From Ancylobacter sp. IITR112 (GTDB lineage: Bacteria; Pseudomonadota; Alphaproteobacteria; Rhizobiales; Xanthobacteraceae), in assembly GCF_041415945.1 (NCBI RefSeq), contig NZ_JBGCUS010000001.1, positions 3,534,001-3,598,000 on the forward strand: 64,000 nucleotides of DNA, in the 5' to 3' direction. The first letter of the stretch is position 1; every line of letters starts with the position of its first letter. The position numbers and the translations under genes were made by a program. Under the pieces are notes generated by a model. It saw nothing but the letters and a program-made list of their open reading frames with translations. It was not told where the DNA came from and did no database searches. Shown here one piece after another: positions 49,168 through 63,633 of the stretch.

Positions 49168-50235
49168 TCACACCACCGTGACGGCCGGCGCCCCCGCCAC
49201 CGCCCGGCCGATCCGCGCGGCACGGGGGAAACCGGCAGCGCGGATTTCGGAAAGCACCCGCTCCGCCGCCTCCGGCGCCACCGCCACCAGGAGCCCGCCG
49301 GAGGTCTGCGGGTCGGTGAGCAGGTGGCGCTCCGCCTCCGCCATCCCCTCCGGCAGCCGCACGCCCTCGCCATAGCTCGCCCAGTTGCGGTGCGAGGCGC
49401 CGGTGACAAAGCCGGCCTGCGCCAGCGCCCGCGCCTCGGTGAGCACGGGCAGCGCCGCCGCCTCGATCTCCAATCCGAGCCCCGAGCCCCGCGCCACTTC
49501 GAGGCCATGGCCGAGAATGCCGAAGCCGGTCACGTCGGTCACCGCATGCACCGCCGCCTCCCGCCCGAGCGCGTTGCCGATGCGGTTGAGCGTCGTCATC
49601 GCGGCGACCATCTCGTCATAGGCGGCGGGTGGGAGCTTCTCCTTCTTGAACGCGGCGGAATAGATGCCGACGCCGAGCGGCTTGGTGAGGATCAGCACGT
49701 CGCCGGCACGCGCGGTGCTGTTCCTGCGGATCTCATCGGGCCGTGCGGTGCCGATCACAGCGAGCCCGTAGATCGGCTCCGGCGCGTCGATGGAATGGCC
49801 GCCGGCCACCGGAATGCCGGCCTCGGCGGCGATGGAGGCGCCGCCTTTCAGGATCTCGCGCACGATGGCCGGCTCCAGCCGGCCGAGCGGCATGCCGAGA
49901 ATGGCGAGCGCCAGCAGCGGCGTGCCGCCCATCGCATAGACATCGGAAATCGCGTTGGTGGCGGCGATGCGGCCGAACACATAGGGATCGTCCACCATCG
50001 GCATGAAAAAGTCGGTGGTGGCGATCAGGCAGGTGTCGTCGTTCAACTGGTAGACCGCCGCGTCGTCACCGGTCTCGGTGCCGACCAGCAGCCGCGTGAA
50101 GCCGGCGCTGGCCGGCTGTTCCGCCAGCAATTCGCGCAGCACCGCGGGCGCCAGCTTGCAGCCGCAGCCGCCGCCATGGGCGAGGCTGGTGAGGCGGAAC
50201 GGGACGGCTGGGGTTGGGGTGTCGAGCATGGACAT
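49168..50235 (-). CDS. selD: Selenide, water dikinase
   Basis: Makes selenophosphate from selenide and ATP, the selenium donor for Sec-tRNA. The 355-residue protein has [13 protein letters not shown] with C24 and K27, corresponding to the essential cysteine and lysine of the Escherichia coli enzyme. [26 protein letters not shown] and the [19 protein letters not shown] signature bind metal and ATP. The catalytic residue is cysteine, not selenocysteine, so the gene needs no UGA decoding. It lies just upstream of larA on the same strand and 2 kb from the selenoprotein formate dehydrogenase genes, with which it must cooperate. Confidence 0.97.
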
Positions 50236-52336: not shown

Positions 52337-55300
52337 ATGAATATGGAGCTCTCGCGCCGTACGTTCCTCAAAACGTCGGGGGCCGGCCTTGCCGGTACCA
52401 CGTTGGGTGCCTTCGGCTTCAGCGAGGCGGAGGCGGCCGTCGCCGCTGCCGTGAAGCCGTTCCACCTGGTGAACACCACGGAAGCGCGAAACACCTGCAC
52501 CTACTGCTCGGTCGCCTGCGGCATCATCATCTATTCCAAGGGTGACCTGAAGAAAGGCGAGAAGGCCGACATCGTCCATATCGAGGGCGACGCCGACCAT
52601 CCGACCAATCGCGGCACGCTCTGCCCCAAGGGCGCGGCGCTGCGCGACATCGTGAAGTCGCCGACGCGCCTGACCCAGCCGATGATCCGCAAGGCGGGCG
52701 CCGACAGCTTCGAGCCGATCTCCTGGGACGCGGCGCTCGACAAGATCGCCCGCGCGATGAAGGACGACCGCGACGCCAATTTCGTCGCGACAAACCAGGA
52801 CGGCGTGACCGTCAATCGCTGGCTCACCGCCGGCTTCCTCGCGGCCTCCGCGACCACCAACGAGACGGCGTTCGCGACCTACAAGGTCGTGCGCTCGACC
52901 GGCATATTGGCGTTCGATAACCAAGCGCGTGTCTGACACGGCCCGACGGTGGCGAGTCTCGCCCCAACTTTTGGCCGTGGAGCAATGACCAACGCCTGGA
53001 CGGACATCAAGAACACCGACCTCGTGGTCATCATGGGCGGCAATGCCGCCGAAGCACATCCGTGCGGATTCAAATGGGTCACCGAGGCGAAAGCCAACCG
53101 TGGCGCCAAGCTCATCGTCGTCGACCCGCGCTACAACCGCTCGGCCTCGGTGGCGGATTTCTATGCGCCGATCCGCCAGGGGTCGGACATCGTCTTCCTC
53201 ATGGCCCTGATCAATTACTGCATCAGCAATGACAAGGTGCAGTGGGACTATGTGAAGCCCTTCACCAATGCCAGCTTCGTCGTGCGCGAGGGCTATGGCT
53301 ACCAGGACGGGCTGTTCACCGGCTATGACGAGGAAAAGCGCGACTATAACCGCGACACATGGGAATATGAGATCGGCCCGGACGGCTATGCCGTGGTCGA
53401 CGACACGCTGCAGAATCCGCGCTGCGTGTGGAATCTGCTGAAGCAGCACGTCGCCATTTACACGCCTGAGATGGTGGAGCGCGTCTGCGGCACACCGAAG
53501 GACGCCTTCCTCAAGGTGGCCGAGATGGTGGCGGAATGCTCGACGCCGACCAAGACCATGACGAGCATGTACGCGCTCGGCTGGACCCAGCATTCCAAGG
53601 GCGCGCAGAATATTCGCGGCATGGCGATGCTGCAGCTCGTGCTCGGCAATATCGGCGTGCGCGGCGGCGGCATGAACGCTCTGCGCGGGCATTCCAACAT
53701 CCAGGGGCTGACCGATCTCGGGCTGATGAGCAACCTCATCCCCGGCTATCTCAACATCCCCACCCAGAAGGAACCGGACTTCACCACCTATATGTCGACG
53801 CGGGCCTTCAAGCCGCTGCGGCCGAACCAGACGAGCTACTGGCAGAACTACCGCAAGTTCTTCGTCAGCTTCATGAAGTCCATGTACGGCCCGGCCGCAA
53901 CGGCGGAGAATGACTGGGCCTATAACTACCTGCCCAAGCTCGATGTCGCCAGCTACGACGTGCTGCGCATCTTCGAGATGATGAAGCAGGGCAAGGTGAA
54001 CCTCTATTTCTGCCAGGGGTTCAACCCGCTGCAGGCCTTCCCTGACAAGGGCAAGCTCGCCGCCGGCCTCGCCAAGCTGAAGCTGCTGGTCATCATGGAC
54101 CCGCTTGAGACCGAGACCGCCCGTTTCTGGGAGGATCACGGCACCTTCAACAAGGTGAGCCCGGCGGACATCAAGACCGAGGTGATCCAGCTTCCCACCA
54201 CCTGCTTCGCCGAAGACGAAGGCTCGCTGGTCAATTCCGGCCGCTGGCTGCAATGGCACTGGCCCGGCGGCTCGCCTCCGGGCGAGGCGAAGACCGACAC
54301 CTGGATCATGGCGCAGATTCATCTGCGGCTGAAGGCGCTGTACCAGAAGGAAGGCGGCGCCTTCCCCGATCCGATCGTCAACCTCAACTGGTCCTACAAG
54401 GACCCGGGCGAGCCGACGCCGGAAGAACTGGCGAAGGAGATGAACGGGTCGGTGCTGGTCGATGTCTTCGACCCCGCCGATCCGACCAAGAAGATCCTGG
54501 AGGCCGGCAAGCAGCTTTCCGGCTTCGGCCAGATGCGCGACGACGGCACCACGGCGGGCGGCTGCTGGATCTTCTCCGGCTGCTGGACCGAGGCCGGCAA
54601 CATGATGGCGCGGCGGGACAATTCCGATCCCGGCGACGCCGGCATGTTCCTCAAATGGTCCTATTCCTGGCCGGCCAACCGGCGCGTGCTCTACAACCGC
54701 GCCTCCTGCGACCTCGACGGCAAGCCGTGGGACCCCTCGCGCAAGCTGATCGAGTGGGACGGCGCCAAATGGACCGGCTACGACGTGCCGGACATCGCCC
54801 CCACCGCCAAGCCGAGGGATGTCGGCCCCTTCATCATGAACCCCGAGGGCACCTCGCGGCTCTGGGTGCGCAAGATGATGCGGGACGGACCGTTCCCGGT
54901 GCATTACGAGCCGTTCGAAAGCCCGGTCGCCAATGTCATCGCGCCGAAGATCCGCGGCAACCCGGTGGCGCGCGTGTTCAAGGACGATTGGAAGAGCTTC
55001 GCCGACATTGGCGATCCCAACTTCCCCTATGCCGGCACCTCCTACCGTCTCACCGAGCATTTCCACTACTGGACCAAGAACAACCATGTGAACTCGGTCC
55101 TGCAGCCGGAACAGTTCGTGGAGATTTCCGAGGAACTGGCGAAGGAAAAGGGCATCGCGCTCGGCGGCTGGGTGCGGGTGTGGTCGAAGCGCGGCGAGCT
55201 CTACGCCAAGGCGGTCGTCACCAAGCGCATCAAGCCGATGACCATTGACGGCAAGACGGTGCACATCGTCGGCGTGCCGATCCACTGGGGTTTCGTCGGC

Positions 55301-55426
55301 TCGGCCCGCAAGGGCTTCCCCGCCAACACGCTCACCCCCTTCGTCGGGGACGCGAATATCGAGACCCCGGAGTTCAAGGCGTTCATGGTCAACATCGAGC
55401 CCTCCACCGGGCCGGTGGTGGCATAG
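52337..55426 (+). CDS. fdnG: Formate dehydrogenase-N/O alpha subunit, selenocysteine-containing
   Basis: Catalytic subunit (1029 residues including selenocysteine) of the membrane-bound formate dehydrogenase, which oxidises formate to CO2 with a bis-MGD molybdenum or tungsten cofactor. The N-terminus has a Tat signal (SRRTFLK). C54, C57, C61 and C96 bind a 4Fe-4S cluster. At residue 200 an in-frame UGA (52934-52936) stands in QARV-U-HGPTVASLAP, the exact context of selenocysteine in Escherichia coli FdnG. A hairpin follows it (52937-52979). The sequence continues in the same frame to the stop at 55426, so this is decoding, not a frameshift. GGGGAGGG precedes the ATG. Beta and gamma genes follow. 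Confidence 0.97.
52934..52980 (+). promoter_or_regulatory. Bacterial SECIS hairpin and Sec UGA codon in fdnG
   Basis: The UGA at 52934-52936 is followed at once by CACGGCC (52937-52943), which pairs with GGCCGTG at 52973-52979. In the upper part, GGTGGCGAGTCTCGCCCC (52948-52965) gives a short stem with a loop containing GTCT, like the SelB-binding loop of the Escherichia coli fdnG/fdhF elements. The element lies within the coding sequence, as in all bacterial SECIS. Confidence 0.88.
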
Positions 55427-55438
55427 GGAGGCGGCATC

Positions 55439-56431
55439 ATGTTTCCTGCGATCCCCAATCCCAACGTCGCCACCGACGCCGCCACTCCGCGCTTCGGCGA
55501 GAAGGACATTCTCCGCCGCAGCGCTTCCACGGTCACGCCGCCCGCTGAGCGGCTGACCGAGGTGGCCAAGCTGATCGATGTCTCCAAATGCATCGGCTGC
55601 AAGGCCTGCCAGGCCGCGTGCCTGGAATGGAACAACCTCACCGAGGAGATCGGCTTCAACCACGGGATCTACACCAATCCCATGGACCTGACGCCGGACA
55701 CCTTCACGCTGATGCGCTTTACCGAATGGGTGAACCCCGAGACGGACAATCTCGAATGGCTCATCCGCAAGGATGGCTGCATGCATTGCGAGGATCCGGG
55801 CTGCCTCAAGGCCTGCCCGGCTCCCGGCGCCATCGTGCAGTATTCCAACGGCATCGTGGACTTCCAGCACGACAACTGCATTGGCTGCGGCTACTGCATC
55901 AAGGGCTGCCCGTTCAACATCCCGCGCATCTCCAAGGTCGACCACACTGCCTATAAATGCACGCTCTGCTCCGACCGTGTCGCCGTCGGCCAGGGCCCGG
56001 CCTGCCAGAAGGCATGCCCGACCCAGGCCATCGTCTTCGGCACCAAGGACGAGATGAAGGAGTGGGCCGACTTCCGCATCAAGGACCTGAAGTCGCGCGG
56101 CTTCGAGAACGCCGGCCTCTACGATCCGCCGGGCGTGGGCGGCACCCATGTGATGTATGTGCTGCACCATGCCGACACGCCGTCCATCTATGCCGGCCTG
56201 CCGGACAATCCGCGCATCTCGCCCATTGTCGATGCGTGGAAGGGCGTGACCAAATATGTCGGCCTCGCCGTGATGGGCTTCGCCGCCGCCGCCGGCTTCC
56301 TGCATTATGTCGTCGCCGGGCCGAACAAGGTGTCGGAAGAGGATGAGGAGAATGCCGAGCGGCTCGCCGACGGCACCCCGCCGCCGCCGACCGCCGCCTC
56401 GGCCGGCCACAGCGAGGGGAGGACGCCATGA
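55439..56431 (+). CDS. fdnH: Formate dehydrogenase beta subunit (4Fe-4S ferredoxin type)
   Basis: Electron-transfer subunit (330 residues) carrying four 4Fe-4S clusters from the catalytic site to the membrane cytochrome. The four cysteine groups are [14 protein letters not shown] (from C51), [36 protein letters not shown], and [21 protein letters not shown] single C-terminal helix ([20 protein letters not shown]) anchors it, and the tail is acidic. It is preceded by GGAGG and overlaps the gamma subunit gene by four bases (ATGA). Confidence 0.96.
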
Positions 56432-57159
56432 GCGCCAGCAACCTCAAGACCCCGCAGGCGGGCCACCTGCCGGACGATGTGGAACCGGGCGACGCCGTTC
56501 GCCCGGGCCACCCGGTCCAGGTGTCGCGCTACACCGTCGGCGCGCGCATCAACCACTGGATCACGGCGCTGAGCCTGATCCTGCTGGCGCTGTCGGGCCT
56601 CGCCCTGTTCACGCCGAGCCTGTTCTTCCTCACCGGCCTGTTCGGCGGCGGGCAATGGACGCGGGCGATCCATCCCTGGATCGGCGTGGTGCTGTTCTTC
56701 TCCTTCGCGGGGCTGTTCCTGCGCTTCTGGAAGGCCAATCTTCCCGCGCGCGAGGATGGCACCTGGCTCGCCCGCATCAGTGACGTGCTGCGCGGGCGGG
56801 AGGAGCGGCTGCCGGAAATCGGCAAGTACAATGCCGGTCAGAAATTCGTCTTCTGGGGTATGTCGGCCCTCATCGTCATCCTCATCGCCAGCGGCGTGGT
56901 GATGTGGGACCAGTATTTCTACCCCTACACCAGCATCGAGCAGAAGCGCGTCGCCATCCTCGTTCATTCCATTGCGGCGGTGGCGATCATCTGCGTGTGG
57001 ATCATCCATGTCTATGCCGCCATCTGGGTCAAGGGCACCATTGGCGCCATGACCCGGGGCAAGGTCACCGGCGGCTGGGCGTGGCGCCACCACCGCAAAT
57101 GGCTGCGTGAACTGGTCGGCACCCGGCCGGGCAAGCGCCCGCCGACGCCGGCGGAATAG
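56428..57159 (+). CDS. fdnI: Formate dehydrogenase gamma subunit (cytochrome b556)
   Basis: Membrane diheme cytochrome b (243 residues) that passes electrons from the beta subunit to the quinone pool. It has four predicted helices: the first contains [20 protein letters not shown] with a heme histidine, later ones contain [40 protein letters not shown] and [20 protein letters not shown] with further histidines. It has an N-terminal extension of about 25 residues before the first helix. It overlaps fdnH by four bases. A strong hairpin follows its stop. Confidence 0.95.
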
Positions 57160-57208: not shown

Positions 57209-57251
57209 CCCTTCCGTTCCACGTGGCCCGTGCGGTTCGTGAGGTTGAGTG

Positions 57252-58163
57252 ATGTCGCAGAACCTTCAGCCCGATCCCAGCGTGATCGGCACCGTCTCCA
57301 CCCCGCCCTTCGCGGTGCTGCCCGACCCCGCGCATCTGTTCGGTGTGCGGGCGAAGCGGCTGCGCACTTATGCGGCGGTGAGCCCGCTCAAGCCCTATCT
57401 CGATTTCGTCGCCGGCCTTATCGAGGCGCAGCAGGCCATCGTGCCGTCCCTGCCGCCGGTGGAGGCGCCCGACCCGGAGAAGCTGGAGCAGGCCCGCGCC
57501 TTCGAAATGCCAGCGCTGGAGCGCGCCGCCACCCGGCTCGACGACACGCTGGAGTCCACGCTCGACCAGTTGTTCGACGCCGCTGCCGGCGTGAGCATGC
57601 CGGAAGAAGCCGGGCAGGCGCTCACCCGCGTGCGCCTCGCCGATGGCGCCGTGCGGGCGCAGATGGTGCGCGACGTGCTGGCGCATGATCTGCCGGTGGA
57701 GCGCCTCGCCGAGCATGTCTATGTCGCCGCCGGGCTTCAGGTGCATTTCGCCCGTCTTGCCGCGACGCTCGACGCGAAAAAGCTGGTGCCGGTGGGCGAT
57801 GGCGTGTGCCCGGCCTGCGGCGGGCCGCCGGTGGCCTCGCTCATCGTCGAATGGCCGAACGCCCATGGCAACCGCTTCTGCGCCTGCTCGCTCTGTTCGA
57901 CGCTGTGGAACTATGTCCGCATCCGCTGCTGCGCCTGTGGCACCACCAAGGGCATCGGCTATCAGGAAATCGACGGCAGCCCCGGCACGGTGAAGGCGGA
58001 AACCTGCGACGAGTGCCGCACCTATGTGAAGGTGATGTACCAGAACAAGGATGTCACCATCGAGCCGGTGGCGGACGATATCGGCACGCTGGGGCTCGAT
58101 CTGATGATGCGGCAGGGGCCCTATCGCCGCGCCGCCTTCAATCCCTTCCTGCTCGGCTATTGA
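57252..58163 (+). CDS. fdhE: Formate dehydrogenase accessory protein FdhE
   Basis: Rubredoxin-like accessory protein (303 residues) that interacts with the catalytic subunits of respiratory formate dehydrogenases before export. It shows four CxxC-type pairs: CPACGGPP, FCACSLCSTLWNYVR, CCACGTTKGIGY and CDECRTYVKVMYQNKD, in the spacing of the family, and ends RRAAFNPFLLGY. The ATG at 57252 is used in preference to an overlapping GTG. It follows fdnI after a hairpin and precedes selA by ten bases. The sulfur transferase FdhD, also needed, is not in the window. Confidence 0.95.
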   Translation: MSQNLQPDPSVIGTVSTPPFAVLPDPAHLFGVRAKRLRTYAAVSPLKPYLDFVAGLIEAQQAIVPSLPPVEAPDPEKLEQARAFEMPALERAATRLDDTLESTLDQLFDAAAGVSMPEEAGQALTRVRLADGAVRAQMVRDVLAHDLPVERLAEHVYVAAGLQVHFARLAATLDAKKLVPVGDGVCPACGGPPVASLIVEWPNAHGNRFCACSLCSTLWNYVRIRCCACGTTKGIGYQEIDGSPGTVKAETCDECRTYVKVMYQNKDVTIEPVADDIGTLGLDLMMRQGPYRRAAFNPFLLGY

Positions 58164-58173
58164 GGGCGTGGCC

Positions 58174-59595
58174 ATGGACGCGCCCTCCCGTCCCGCCTCC
58201 CCCAGCCCGCGCGACCTGCCCTCGGTCGACCGCGTGCTCGCCACGCCCGCCGGCCAGAGCGCGGTGGAGATGTTCGGCCGCGCCCCGGCCACCTCGGCCA
58301 TCCGCGCCGCGCTGCAGGAACTGCGCGCCTGCCTGTTGGCGGGCCGGCTCGCGGCCCTGCCCTCGGCCGACCATGTCGCTCTCGCCGCCACCGAGGCGCT
58401 GGAGCGTGGCGCCCGCTCGCGCCTGCGCCCGGTCTACAATCTCACCGGCACGGTGCTGCACACCAATCTCGGCCGCGCCGTGCTGTCGGAAGAAGCGGTG
58501 GAAGCAGCGACGCAGGCCATGCGCGCCGCCGTGGCGCTGGAATATGACCTCGCCACCGGCAAGCGCGGCGAGCGCGACGACCATGTGCGCGACCTGCTGA
58601 TCGACCTCACCGGGGCGGAAGACGCCACCGTGGTCAATAACAACGCCGCCGCCGTGCTTCTCGTGCTGAACACGCTGGGCCTCGGACGCGAGGCCATCGT
58701 CTCGCGCGGCGAACTGATCGAGATCGGCGGCGCCTTCCGCATGCCTGACATCATGGCCCGCGCGGGGGTGAAGCTCGTCGAGGTCGGGACCACCAACCGC
58801 ACGCACTCCCGGGACTATGCCGGCGCGCTGAACGAGGCGACCGGGCTGGTGCTGAAGGTGCACACCTCGAACTACCGCATCGAGGGCTTCACCAAGGAAG
58901 TGCCGGCGCGGGAGCTGGCGGAGATGGCCCGGGCGCGCGGCGTGCCGCTCGTCAATGATCTCGGCTCCGGCACGCTTTTCGATCTCGCCCGCCTCGGCCT
59001 CGCCCATGAACCCACGGTGCGGGAGGCGGTGGCGGAGGGGGCGGACATCGTCACCTTTTCCGGCGACAAGTTGCTCGGCGGGCCGCAGACCGGCTTCATC
59101 GTCGGCCGTGCCGACCTTATCGCCGCCATCAACAGGAACCCGATGAAGCGGGCGCTGCGGGTCGACAAGATCCGCCTCGCCGCGCTGGAAGCGACGTTGA
59201 AGCTCTACCGCGACCCGGAGCGGCTCGCCGCGCGCCTGCCGACGTTGCGGCTGCTGGCGCGCACCCGAGCGGAGATCGCCGCCCGCGCCCATGAACTGGC
59301 CGAGCCGGTCGCCGCGGCACTCGGCGAGGAATTCGACATCGAGATCGTCGACTGCACCAGCCAGATCGGCTCCGGCGCGCTGCCGCTGGAAACCCTGCCC
59401 AGCGCCGGCTTCGCCATCCGCCCGGCGGCGGAAGCTTCCGGCGGGCGGCTCAACGCGCTGGCGGGCGCGCTGCGCGCCCTGCCCGCCCCGGTCATCGGCC
59501 GCATCAGCGAGGGCGCGCTGATTCTCGACCTGCGCTGCCTGGAGGACGAGGCCGGCTTCCTCGCCAGCCTCGCCGGTCTTGAGGTGCCGGCATGA
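58174..59595 (+). CDS. selA: L-seryl-tRNA(Sec) selenium transferase
   Basis: PLP-dependent decameric enzyme that turns Ser-tRNA-Sec into Sec-tRNA-Sec using selenophosphate. The 473-residue protein has [48 protein letters not shown] and the PLP lysine in [18 protein letters not shown]. The ATG at 58174 is preferred to a GTG six bases earlier because TGAGGG is then correctly spaced. It overlaps selB by four bases (ATGA), so the selenocysteine machinery is made as a coupled unit with fdhE. Confidence 0.96.
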
Positions 59596-61709
59596 TCATC
59601 GGCACCGCCGGCCATATCGACCATGGCAAGACCGCGCTGGTCGGCGCGCTGACCGGCACCGACACCGACCGGCTGAAGGAGGAGAAGGCGCGCGGCATCT
59701 CCATCGACCTCGGCTTCGCCTATCTCGCCACCGAGGCCGGCACGCTTGGCTTCATCGACGTGCCCGGCCATGAGAAGTTCATCCACACCATGCTGGCAGG
59801 GGCGAGCGGCATCGACATGGCGCTGCTCGTTGTCGCCGCCGATGACGGGGTGATGCCGCAGACCCGCGAGCATCTCGCGCTCATCGAGCTGCTCGGCATC
59901 TCCCACGGCCTGGTGGCGCTGACCAAGGCCGATCTCGCCGATGCCGACCGCCGCGCCGCGGTGACGGCGGAGATCGCCGCCCTGCTCGACGGCACGGCGC
60001 TGGCGGGCGCGCCGGTTCTCCCCGTCTCCGCCCGCACCGGCGAGGGTATGGAGACGTTGCGCGCGGCACTGATCGACGCCGCCCGCCAGTCCGAGACCCG
60101 CCCGGCGGAGGGACGTTTTCGCCTCGCGGTGGACCGCAGCTTCACCCTCGCCGGTGCCGGAACCGTCGTCACCGGCACCGTGCTGTCCGGCCGGGTCCGC
60201 GTCGGCGATCCGCTCATGGTCAGCCCATCCGGCCTGCCCGCGCGGCTGCGCTCGCTGCACGCGCAGAACCGCAAGGCGGAGGAAGGCCGCGCCGGCGAAC
60301 GCTGCGCGCTCAACCTCGCCGGCGAGGCGATCCGGCCGGAGGCGATCAAGCGCGGCGACATGGTGCTCACCCCCGCGCTGCATGCCCCCACCGAGCGCAT
60401 CGACGCCACGCTCACCGTGCTGGCGAGCGAGCCGAAACCGCTCGGTGCCTGGTTTCCGGTGCGCTTCCACCACGGCGCGAGCGAGATCGGGGGGCGGTTG
60501 GTCCCGCTCTCCGACGACACAATCGCCCCCGGCACGACCGGCCTCGTGCAGATCGTGCTGGAACGGCCCATCGCCGCCGCCGTGGGCGACCGTTATGTCA
60601 TTCGCGACACCTCGGCGCAGCGCAGCATCGGCGGCGGTCGTCTCATCGACCTGCGCGCCCCGGCCCGCAAACGCCGCGCTCCCGCGCGCCTTGCCCAGCT
60701 CGCCGCGCTGCGCGAAGCCGACCCGTACGCTGCGGTGACCGGCCTGCTGGCGGTGCCGCCCCATCATCTCGACCTCGCCGCCTTCGCCCGCGACCGGGCG
60801 CTTGCGGCGCAGGCGCCGGAGGACATCGCCGCGCGGCTCGGCCTCACCGTCCTCGCCAGTGGCGACACGTTGACCGTGCTCTCCCCCGCGCATTGGTTGG
60901 CGTACACGCAAGCGCTGCGCACGGAACTGGCGCAGTTCCACGCGGCCAATTCCGACCTGCCCGGCATCGGCGCGGAAAAGTTGCGCCTCGCCCTCGTCCC
61001 GCGCCTCGTCCGGCCCGTCTTCTCCGAGGCGCTGCACCGGCTCGCCGAGGCCGGCGCGCTGGTGCGCGAGGGGGCCTGGGTGCGGCTTCCCGACCATGAG
61101 GTGCGCCTCACCGATGGCGACGAGGCGCTGTGGGCGCGTATCGCCCCGGCCCTCGGCGGCACTGGCCGCTTCCGCCCCCCGCGCGTACGCGACCTGGCCG
61201 CGCTCACGGGCGAGGCGGAGAGCGAGATCCGCCGGCTGATGAAGTTGCTCGCCCGCATGGGCAAGGTGGACGAAGTGGCGCATGACCATTTCTTCCTCCG
61301 CCCCACCCTGGCGGAGATGGTGGCGCTCGCCGAGGCGCTGGCGCAGGCCGCGCCGGGCCGGGACTTCACCGCCTCCGCCTTCCGCGACCGCATCGAGGCC
61401 GGCGGCCACGCCGTCGGCCGCAAGGTGGCGATCCAGATTCTCGAATGTCTCGACCGCCACGGCGTCACCCTGCGGCGTGGCGATCTGCGCCGCATCAACC
61501 GCCACCGGCTGGACCTGTTCGGGGCGATCGACGACACTGCTACGCCCGCCCCCGCCCGGGGCGCGGACATGCCTTCTGGAAGAGCGTTACCTCCGGTGAG
61601 GTATCCGGACTTCAAATCCGGAAGGGGCCGCGAGACGGTCCCTGGTGGGTTCGACTCCCACTCTCTTCCGCCACCCCCCTCGCCGCCGGGCTCTGGCCCG
61701 AGCCAGTAG
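59592..61709 (+). CDS. selB: Selenocysteine-specific elongation factor SelB, ORF extends through selC
   Basis: GTPase (705 residues) that delivers Sec-tRNA-Sec to UGA codons by binding the SECIS hairpin. The EF-Tu-like half has [19 protein letters not shown] (G1), [20 protein letters not shown] (G3) and TKADLAD (G4). The C-terminal winged-helix region ends at about [12 protein letters not shown] near residue 640. The frame then continues for about 60 residues. Residues 663-694 are encoded by exactly the 96 bases of the tRNA-Sec gene, in phase with its first base, and the stop is 36 bases beyond. No earlier stop exists, so the natural tail either includes tRNA-encoded residues or is lost on tRNA processing. 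Confidence 0.95.
61578..61673 (+). tRNA. selC: tRNA-Sec(UCA), inside the selB reading frame
   Basis: Selenocysteine tRNA of 96 bases with encoded CCA. The acceptor GGAAGAG (61578-61584) pairs with CTCTTCC (61663-61669), followed by G and CCA (61671-61673). The anticodon TCA lies at 61612-61614 in the loop CTTCAAA, with a 6-bp stem TCCGGA/TCCGGA. A long variable arm (GGGGCCGCGAGACGGTCCC) and the T loop GGTTCGACTCC are visible, and the D arm CCTCCGGTGAGG has the extended stem typical of tRNA-Sec. It overlaps selB entirely and is probably co-transcribed with selAB. Confidence 0.97.
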
Positions 61710-61738
61710 AGTTTCGCTGTCCGACCCGGCGGAGGCCC

Positions 61739-62626
61739 TCACCCCATGGCCGGCGTCGGCGCGCCGGTAAGCTCGGCCTCCTCCGCTTCCAGCGCTGCCC
61801 GCTGGCGCCGCGCGGCGGCCGCGTCGGCCCGTCGCTTATAGATCTCATAGGCGATGGCGCCGATCACCGTCACCGCCACGATCACCACCGCCAGCGCGGA
61901 GATGGCGGGCGTCGAGCCCTGCCGCACCCGCCCGGCGAGCACGGTGGTCAGGGTCTTGTCGGAGAGGATGGCAAAGGTGGTGGTGTTGTAGTTCTCGAAA
62001 GAGGAGAGGAAGGCCAGCACCGCCGCCGAGGCCAGCGCCGGCTTGAGGAAGGGCAGCAATATGTGGTGGAACACCTGCGGGTAGCTCGCCCCGAGGTCCA
62101 GCGCCGCCTCTTCCTGCGAGCGGTCGAAGCGCTGCAGCCGGGCGAGGATGATCAGCATGCAATAGGCGGAGATGAAGCTCGCCTGGCCCAGAACGGTCAG
62201 CACCACGCCGTCATAGAGAAAGCGCGTGCCGGTCTGCCCGGTGAACTGACGCCAGAACACCACGGTGGAAATGCCGATGATGATGCCGGGAGTGAGCACC
62301 GGCGAGACGACGACGAGATAATAGAGCGAGCGCACCCGCGGCTGGATCTGCGTCATGATGATGGCGCCGGCGAGCCCGATCGGCACGGAAATGCACACCA
62401 CCAGCAGCCCGATCCACAGGCTCATCCTCAGGCCGGTCATCATGTCCTGGTCGGCGAACAGCGCCGCGAACCAGTCGAGAGTCAGCCCCTCGATCGGCCA
62501 GACCTGCGGGTATTGCGGGGTGTTGAAGGCGGATACCGCCATCACCGCCAACGGCCCCAGCAGATAGAGGAAGAAGATCACCGTGTAGAGCGCGAACATC
62601 ACCCGCTGGAACGGACCCGGAATCAT
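61739..62626 (-). CDS. ABC transporter permease, PotC-like
   Basis: Inner-membrane permease (295 residues, about six helices) of a spermidine/putrescine-type importer. The EAA loop reads QEEAALDLGASYPQVFHHIL with the conserved E-A-A and G residues. An extended hydrophilic C-terminus of about 35 residues is alanine- and glutamate-rich. Substrate by family is a polyamine or related cation, but some members take opines or other compounds. The ATG overlaps the upstream permease stop by four bases. It is the last gene of the operon, convergent with selB/selC. Confidence 0.9.
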   Translation of the reverse strand: MIPGPFQRVMFALYTVIFFLYLLGPLAVMAVSAFNTPQYPQVWPIEGLTLDWFAALFADQDMMTGLRMSLWIGLLVVCISVPIGLAGAIIMTQIQPRVRSLYYLVVVSPVLTPGIIIGISTVVFWRQFTGQTGTRFLYDGVVLTVLGQASFISAYCMLIILARLQRFDRSQEEAALDLGASYPQVFHHILLPFLKPALASAAVLAFLSSFENYNTTTFAILSDKTLTTVLAGRVRQGSTPAISALAVVIVAVTVIGAIAYEIYKRRADAAAARRQRAALEAEEAELTGAPTPAMG

Positions 62627-63633
62627 CGCGTGATTTCTCCAAGGCTGAGCCGGAACGCCTTGAGCACCACCAGCACGAACAGAATGCAGCTCACCAGCAG
62701 GATGAAGGCATAAGCCGCCCCCTGCGGCCAATTGAAGGCCTGGTAGAAGCGATCATAGACGATGGGGGTGAACCACAGCGTGCGCGGCCCGCCCAGCACG
62801 AGGGGCGCCGCCAGCGCCCCGGCGGTGAGCATGAATACCAGCGTGCAGCCCGAGGCGATGCCCGGCTTGGCATGCGGCAGCACGATGAAGGCGTGGATGT
62901 GCCACCACGGCGCCCCGAGATCCCGCGCCGCCTCCACCTGATTCTTGTCCAGGCTTTCAATGGCGTTGTAGAGCGGGAAGATCATCATCAGGAGATAGGC
63001 GTAGGAAAGGCCCATATAGAGCCCGACATCGGCCCCGAGGAAGTCGATCGGCTCGGAGGTGAGGCCCGCGCCCATCAGCATCTGGTTGATGATGCCACCG
63101 GAGGAGAGCAGCACCCGGAAGGCGAAGGCGCGCAGGATCTCGTTCACCCAATAGGGCAAAATCAGCAGCAGCAGCAGGATGCGCAGCCGCGCCGCGCTCG
63201 CCGACTGTGCCATGTGGAAAGCCAGCGGGTAGCAGATGGCGAAATTGATCAGGGTGATGATGATGCTCACCCCGATGGTGAGGAAGAAGGCCTTGATGTG
63301 CAGCCAGTTCCATTCGGCGGTGGAGGTGGTGGAGCCGAACAGGAAGTAGCGGTAATTCTCCAGCGTGTAGAGGTCCTTCGGCCCGCCCATCTGCGAGGGC
63401 GGCAGCTTCGGGCGGAACGACATGTCCACCATGGCGAGCTGCGGCAGCAGGATGATGAAGAAGGCCCAGAAGCCGACAGCGAGAACGAGATAGAGCCCGA
63501 CTGCGAGGCCGTTGCGCTGGAAGAAGCCGGGGCCGGTCGCCACGCCCATGCGCCGCTCATAGGCGCTCAGCGCGAAGAACAGCACAACGACCGCCAGCGG
63601 CAGGCCGAAGACGAAGGCGAGGCTGCCATTCAT
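62623..63633 (-). CDS. ABC transporter permease, PotB-like
   Basis: Inner-membrane permease of 336 residues. It has an EAA-type loop (DKNQVEAARDLGAPWWHIHA) and a helix-rich sequence with an unusual extra N-terminal helix (FVFGLPLAVVVLFFALSAYE) before the classic PotB start, plus a large periplasmic loop (about residues 70-115). It overlaps the PotC-like gene and the ATPase gene by four bases each, so the three are one operon. The substrate is inferred only. Confidence 0.9.
   Translation of the reverse strand: MNGSLAFVFGLPLAVVVLFFALSAYERRMGVATGPGFFQRNGLAVGLYLVLAVGFWAFFIILLPQLAMVDMSFRPKLPPSQMGGPKDLYTLENYRYFLFGSTTSTAEWNWLHIKAFFLTIGVSIIITLINFAICYPLAFHMAQSASAARLRILLLLLILPYWVNEILRAFAFRVLLSSGGIINQMLMGAGLTSEPIDFLGADVGLYMGLSYAYLLMMIFPLYNAIESLDKNQVEAARDLGAPWWHIHAFIVLPHAKPGIASGCTLVFMLTAGALAAPLVLGGPRTLWFTPIVYDRFYQAFNWPQGAAYAFILLVSCILFVLVVLKAFRLSLGEITR

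Follow-up and report, generated by a model that had tools for sequence, protein, structure and literature searches.

A tRNA-Sec gene nested in phase inside selB of an Ancylobacter genome, and the conservation of the reading phase in its relatives

Known nested selB-selC loci and the locus in Ancylobacter sp. IITR112

Nesting of the tRNA-Sec gene selC inside selB has been described across diverse Alphaproteobacteria (Mukai 2021, PMC8124441). The in-phase tRNAs are mostly 96 or 93 nt long, the selB stop overlaps one of two downstream reading frames, ORF1 or ORF2, in many cases, and losses and remnants are also described. Where a tRNA gene overlaps a protein frame, a single RNA has to be either message or tRNA precursor, and the same study hypothesised that tRNA processing yields a non-stop selB message, with SelB and tRNA-Sec as alternatives. 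Passages of two reviews (PMC13188914 and PMC9312934) repeat this model, citing PMC8124441, and a passage of PMC12685816 cites that study in another context. Neither the arrangement nor the model of competition between excision and a non-stop message is new, both being already in PMC8124441. No experimental test of nested selBC is announced in the titles and abstracts that our search found, and in the searchable literature the phenomenon is known from sequence alone. As far as its citation in PMC8124441 describes it, the tRNA-Lys gene inside cox1 of Armadillidium mitochondria likewise runs in the same direction as the coding region that contains it, but it belongs to a compact animal mitochondrial genome.

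The locus studied here, in a 64,000-nucleotide stretch of the Ancylobacter sp. IITR112 genome (contig NZ_JBGCUS010000001.1, positions 3,534,001 to 3,598,000; hereafter the window, whose own numbering we use), is an instance of the known arrangement and closes an fdoGHI-fdhE-selAB-selC cluster. The selB reading frame occupies 59592-61709 on the + strand (705 codons, 705 aa), with its TAG stop at 61707-61709. ARAGORN places a tRNA-Sec with anticodon TCA at 61578-61673 on the same strand, and the Rfam model RF01852 matches 61578-61669 with 82.1 bits. The first base of selC, 61578, is position 1 of codon 663, and its 96 nt, which begin with GGA and include the encoded CCA, make up 32 codons (663-694) within the open selB frame. 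The entire tRNA gene therefore lies inside the same-strand selB ORF, in phase and in the form given by Mukai 2021 for most, though not all, cases (GGA at the start, a length of 96 or 93 nt); an earlier note on this DNA had claimed such complete, exactly in-phase nesting, and its coordinates, phase and length are confirmed. The minimum-energy fold of selC has the expected acceptor, D, anticodon, variable and T arms (-48.6 kcal/mol, z -3.95). RF01852 matches the genome 14 times, twice above the cut-off (this selC and one tRNA-Ser), and selC is the only tRNA-Sec gene identified in the genome.

SelB matches TIGR00475 over residues 1-635 (404 bits), Pfam SelB-wing_3 reaches residue 634, and the best solved SelB chain, 5lzb (614 aa), which we take to be E. 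coli SelB, aligns up to residue 631. We set the end of the SelB core at residue 644, a cut of our own that is the end of the comparison query, while the domain models stop at 634-635. The extension past this core is 61 aa long and consists of an 18-codon spacer that is open in frame (61524-61577, +, 54 nt), the 32 tRNA codons, and a tail of 11 codons that is followed by the TAG stop (61674-61709, +). This is the organisation reported for Azorhizobium caulinodans and other species, in which a 96-nt tRNA-Sec, running from GGA to CCA, lies in phase inside the selB ORF and the nested loci adjoin fdo and sel genes (PMC8124441). The window differs from those loci in that its selB stop overlaps no start of ORF1/ORF2 or of another ORF downstream, and no ORF of at least 80 aa starts across the selB stop or tail of this locus (L089 in our set). 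Since PMC8124441 claims the ORF overlap for many cases, its absence here is no departure from the kind. The selC of the window is intact, unlike that of Sinorhizobium meliloti pSymA, where selB is accompanied by a remnant selC (PMC8124441).

Upstream on the + strand, an fdoG-like gene (52337-55426; the name is taken from the operon described in PMC8124441) encodes a predicted formate dehydrogenase alpha subunit with molybdopterin oxidoreductase domains (PF00384, PF04879, and PF01568). The sole internal TGA of its frame, at 52934-52936, corresponds to Sec at residue 200, and a SECIS element lies beside it (52931-52989, +; RF01989, SECIS_3; 85.5 bits, gathering score 63); judged from these features, the gene is evidently a client of the Sec system of the window. 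It is followed on the same strand by genes for an fdoH-like subunit (55439-56431; 4Fe-4S domains and the formate dehydrogenase N transmembrane domain PF09163) and an fdoI-like subunit (56428-57159; cytochrome b561, PF01292), by fdhE (57249-58163; TIGR01562, 296.9 bits), and by selA (58168-59595; TIGR00474, 589.9 bits), whose stop overlaps the selB start in the sequence ATGA. selD (49267-50196, - strand; G000:C1:3583267-3584196; TIGR00476, 437.2 bits) lies upstream of fdoG on the opposite strand. The Sec-decoding set in the window is complete (selA, selB, selC, selD, and a UGA/SECIS client), and by the genes present the locus is a predicted Sec-decoding system. Beyond selC, the neighbouring gene (61739-62731, -; PF00528, 49.3 bits) encodes an ABC-transporter permease, runs in the opposite direction, and is outside the selB-selC unit.

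The sequence after selC (61674-61725) folds no better than its shuffles (z 0.39), and the scan found no T-rich terminator there. A promoter of selC's own was considered and rejected on the weak evidence that a sigma-70 consensus scan of 61200-61900 contained no promoter-like site; alphaproteobacterial promoters can differ from that consensus. Release of tRNAs by RNase P and 3' processing, the resulting non-stop fragments, and their rescue by tmRNA belong to general knowledge of tRNA maturation and to the published model. Processing of this kind would release tRNA-Sec from the polycistronic RNA, ribosomes that pass before folding and cleavage would produce a SelB extended by about 61 residues, a tail that presumably has no function of its own, and cleaved selB messages would be non-stop and rescued by tmRNA. 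The genome encodes an alpha-type tmRNA (alpha_tmRNA, RF01849, 308.3 bits); RF00023, also tried as a tmRNA model, gave sub-threshold matches only, and RF01849 fits. The proposal of the earlier note that excision of tRNA-Sec would leave a stop-less selB message follows from the sequence, and the alpha-type tmRNA could rescue the stalled ribosomes.

Reading phase and encoded peptide in related loci

The comparison comprised 233 loci (L009-L241). A SelB search in genome contigs gave the best 80 of 181 matches (L009-L088), and because the query was the full window protein including its extension, this set leans to nesting (72 of 80 nested). In whole-genome draws, each of which includes the window's own genome, SelB-bearing genomes numbered 30/30 in the genus, 26/397 in the order, 53/385 in the class, and 51/398 in the phylum, and nesting was found in 18/30, 8/26, 3/53, and 3/51 of them, respectively (9 of 28 rows in the order draw, where one broken gene is counted twice). 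A same-strand selC lies within 400 nt of the SelB core in 174 loci, 154 of them distinct, which divide into 86 nested, 8 partial, and 60 separate tandems. The SelB tree has 153 rows in FastTree (L114 was dropped, its SelB piece being too short) and 152 in IQ-TREE, from which alone L032 was left out (its contig ends after the stop).

All 86 fully nested loci have one phase (0) and a 96-nt tRNA, and their 21 spacer lengths are all multiples of three; the 60 separate loci scatter over the three phases (22, 21, and 17). On the FastTree tree, nested loci underwent 39 changes of spacer length and no change of phase, compared with 52 and 28 for non-nested loci, and IQ-TREE gives 40 and 0 versus 52 and 27. 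Under random indels, about 54% of the changes in loci that stay nested should alter the phase, so that 0 of 39 corresponds to a p of about 1e-13, a value that rests on a rough null and on changes counted as parsimony minima. Dropout of frameshifted loci through stop codons cannot produce this result, because the two shifted frames of nested loci are often open to the end of the tRNA (99 of 172), and loci that had shifted in frame yet stayed nested would have turned up. Across the loci compared, the phase of selB through selC is preserved beyond chance in relatives, which answers positively the check that the earlier note had proposed, namely whether the open phase is conserved in related genomes.

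Openness of a single locus is less telling. When the spacers of nested loci are shuffled, 65% of draws remain open. Among the 60 separate loci, the tRNA is free of stops in 43, 49, and 39 at the three respective offsets (43/60 when read from the first base), and from these values our own arithmetic gives a single-locus chance of open in-phase nesting of about 16% (65% x 43/60 x one in three). As this chance is not tiny, the evidence against chance is comparative and lies in the 86 of 86 loci with 21 lengths. Cheap open frames are what one would expect if the overlap were purely passive, so that loss of a stop in a GC-rich genome simply allowed selB to run on and the overlap was without effect and never selected; we consider this unlikely, since the 39 length changes of nested loci came without a phase change and the rest show 28 phase changes per 52. 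The idea that a TGA in the D arm always closes one tRNA frame proved wrong: offset 1 is open in 68/86 nested and 49/60 separate loci.

The residues encoded by the spacer tell a different story from its phase. We compared 18 disjoint pairs of nested loci whose spacers are equally long. Sorted by codon position, their differences number 53/57/62 in the spacer versus 48/35/220 in the last 60 SelB codons, which corresponds to position-3 shares of 36% (62/172) and 73%. Spacer pairs were compared ungapped, and since hidden indels would flatten a codon signal, we recounted the 10 of 18 pairs with a spacer identity of 80% or more, with the same outcome (18/16/20 in the spacer versus 16/10/97 in the SelB core). 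Given this lack of codon-position bias, the spacer peptide seems unimportant; as far as can be seen, constraint acts on the phase but not on the spacer residues. An unconstrained spacer peptide also speaks for a purely passive overlap, and it weighs against a tRNA-encoded C-terminal peptide that is a functional part of SelB, which we regard as very improbable. The frame is the same in all 86 nested loci and the peptides are accordingly similar in sequence, but conservation of the tRNA accounts for that similarity, the spacer codons lack a position-3 excess, and non-nested relatives keep both selB and selC. Differences in the tail after selC are 13/7/22 by codon position (p 0.013, small sample), which hints that the tail may be under some constraint.

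ORF1 and ORF2 downstream of selC

ORF2 is a conserved protein, mostly of 142-177 aa, that follows selC in L023-L088 and other loci. It ends in ETPxVDF in three of the four examples compared in full, and three ORF1/ORF2 examples, two of them ORF2, had no Pfam match over the curated cut-off. ORF1/2 was counted as near when the matching-frame start codon nearest the selB stop lies within -60 to +250 nt of the selC end, and the nested clade was defined as the 103 tips that hold all nested tips (FastTree, midpoint root). Clade loci with ORF1/2 near show 27 length changes and 1 phase change, and 46/48 of them are nested; those without show 27 and 8, with 39/55 nested (L032 counts among the 39 only because its contig ends); outside the clade, there are 39 length and 20 phase changes. 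Phase changes are thus rarer with ORF1/2 than without (Fisher p 0.024 on the FastTree counts; 1 per 29 versus 8 per 26, p 0.009, with IQ-TREE), the tests being approximate because they assume independent changes and are made on parsimony minima. Clade loci without ORF1/2 do not differ significantly in phase changes from loci outside the clade (p 0.13).

These sequence comparisons suggest that the phase persists chiefly at loci with a further gene immediately downstream of selC; they set the conserved phase apart from the unconserved spacer peptide and point to coupling with ORF1/ORF2 as a candidate cause. The single phase change per 27 length changes where ORF1/2 follows is a further point against a purely passive overlap, a reading that we disfavour for the whole clade. 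Coupling in the sense that the ORF1/2 start overlaps the selB stop past selC occurs in 41 nested loci; that such loci are nested follows from the definition and is no evidence. A Shine-Dalgarno-like motif precedes ORF1/2 in 22 of these 41 loci and is absent in 19, and the 22 motif-bearing loci may be independent of coupling. Tree-corrected independent pairs gave no significant association between nesting and ORF1/2 (median p 0.625; 7 pairs, about 3 informative): ORF presence differed in the same direction as nesting in 2.6 pairs on average, in the opposite direction in 0.8, and not at all in 3.7. All rows together gave 8 pairs and a median p of 0.375. Also against coupling, ORF1/2 is near in five loci that are not nested, two in the clade (L120 and L108) and three outside it (L105, L110, and L123), and in L099 and L100, also non-nested, ORF2 lies further off. 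The clade loci that lack ORF1/2 are, moreover, still nested for the most part, and the nested ones among them kept their phase through 15 length changes.

We lean slightly towards explaining the overlap as inherited, held elsewhere largely by translational coupling, and in the window probably persisting as a tolerated, decaying remnant. In much of the clade, ribosomes leaving selB would start ORF1/ORF2, whose start overlaps the selB stop beyond selC, and the phase would be kept in this way. We infer that the phase is strictly constrained during coupling and that its loss is followed by relaxed, slow decay. A more specific proposal, which we offer tentatively as a possibility, is that the tRNA gene acts as a translational valve: read-through would be needed for ORF1/ORF2, excision would silence ORF1/2 together with full-length SelB, selection would act on the phase and not on the peptide, and decay would set in after loss of ORF1/2, as apparently in the window's genus.

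Nested and non-nested loci within the genus

Within the genus, the coupling partner is apparently mostly missing. No ORF1/2 was found within 1.3 kb downstream of the window selC, and single-sequence searches of the window's own genome with ORF1 and ORF2 had no match, although such searches could miss remote forms and the ORF1 search was run without a positive control. A second ORF2 query matched 1 of the 30 genus genomes, which is the source of the query and hence a trivial positive control; its locus is nested and coupled. The seven tips nearest to the window in the tree are nested and lack ORF1/2, and their selB stop is TAG in six and TGA in one. Among the 30 genomes, 18 loci are nested, 6 have the selB stop inside selC, 5 have it before a nearby selC, and 1 has an intact selC at a distance of about 1.1 kb; frameshifted partial overlaps or early stops occur in other species of this genus. 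Full nesting is thus absent in 12 of 30 genomes in which selB and selC are still present, so that one genus provides its own natural controls. The genus tree requires at least 5 changes between the nested and the non-nested state, which would also suit a passive overlap.

The earlier note had proposed that the overlap could balance SelB against tRNA-Sec and had named, as a finding that would speak against this, related strains with a stop before selC and the same active SelB. Strains with a stop so placed are represented by five genomes of the genus, alongside the six with a stop inside it and the one with a distant selC, and the activity of SelB in them is putative. Balancing of SelB and tRNA-Sec may occur; as the reason for the overlap it is unsupported, given the 12 of 30 genus genomes that are not nested and the way strict phase tracks the downstream ORF1/ORF2. 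The corresponding model, put forward by Mukai 2021 and, as a possible competition, again in the earlier note, is a homeostatic switch: a given transcript becomes tRNA-Sec or full-length SelB but not both, and the overlap would be under selection since SelB in excess sequesters Sec-tRNA. It would explain why the phase is conserved even in nested clade loci that lack ORF1/2, where the spacer length changed 15 times and the phase never, it agrees with the presence of tmRNA and of one identified tRNA-Sec gene in the genome, and it is the model of PMC8124441 as repeated in the review passages cited above. We find it rather doubtful nonetheless, because many members of the genus do without full nesting and because the phase slips more where ORF1/2 is missing (8 per 27 versus 1 per 27), even though selB and selC remain there.

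An inherited overlap that was once coupled fits the genus better in our judgement. The ORF1/2 partner is mostly absent and probably lost, so the overlap in the window would be an inherited remnant, tolerated and slowly decaying, and this reading can hold whatever small effect excision has on the SelB level.

Several loci in the set have irregular structures or placements. In L199 (genome G1105, from the same genus as the window), selC is split by an insert of about 1 kb after the SelB core, a condition similar to the pSymA remnant: the selB frame retains 47 nt of the selC 5' half, and the far end carries an intact selC whose first 47 nt are identical. No integrase or transposase was recognised by eye in a six-frame reading of this insert. 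In L108 and L158, selB ends inside selC at tRNA nt 46-48, the position reported for Dyella and Luteibacter (PMC8124441). In the SelB tree, L030, titled Mycobacterium sp. KBS0706, falls between two Inquilinus limosus records, and its title may be wrong; L018 (Bosea sp. 117) falls among Ancylobacter rows and L086 (Rhodovulum sp. PH10) beside Rhodoplanes, each of which would reflect either misnaming or gene transfer.
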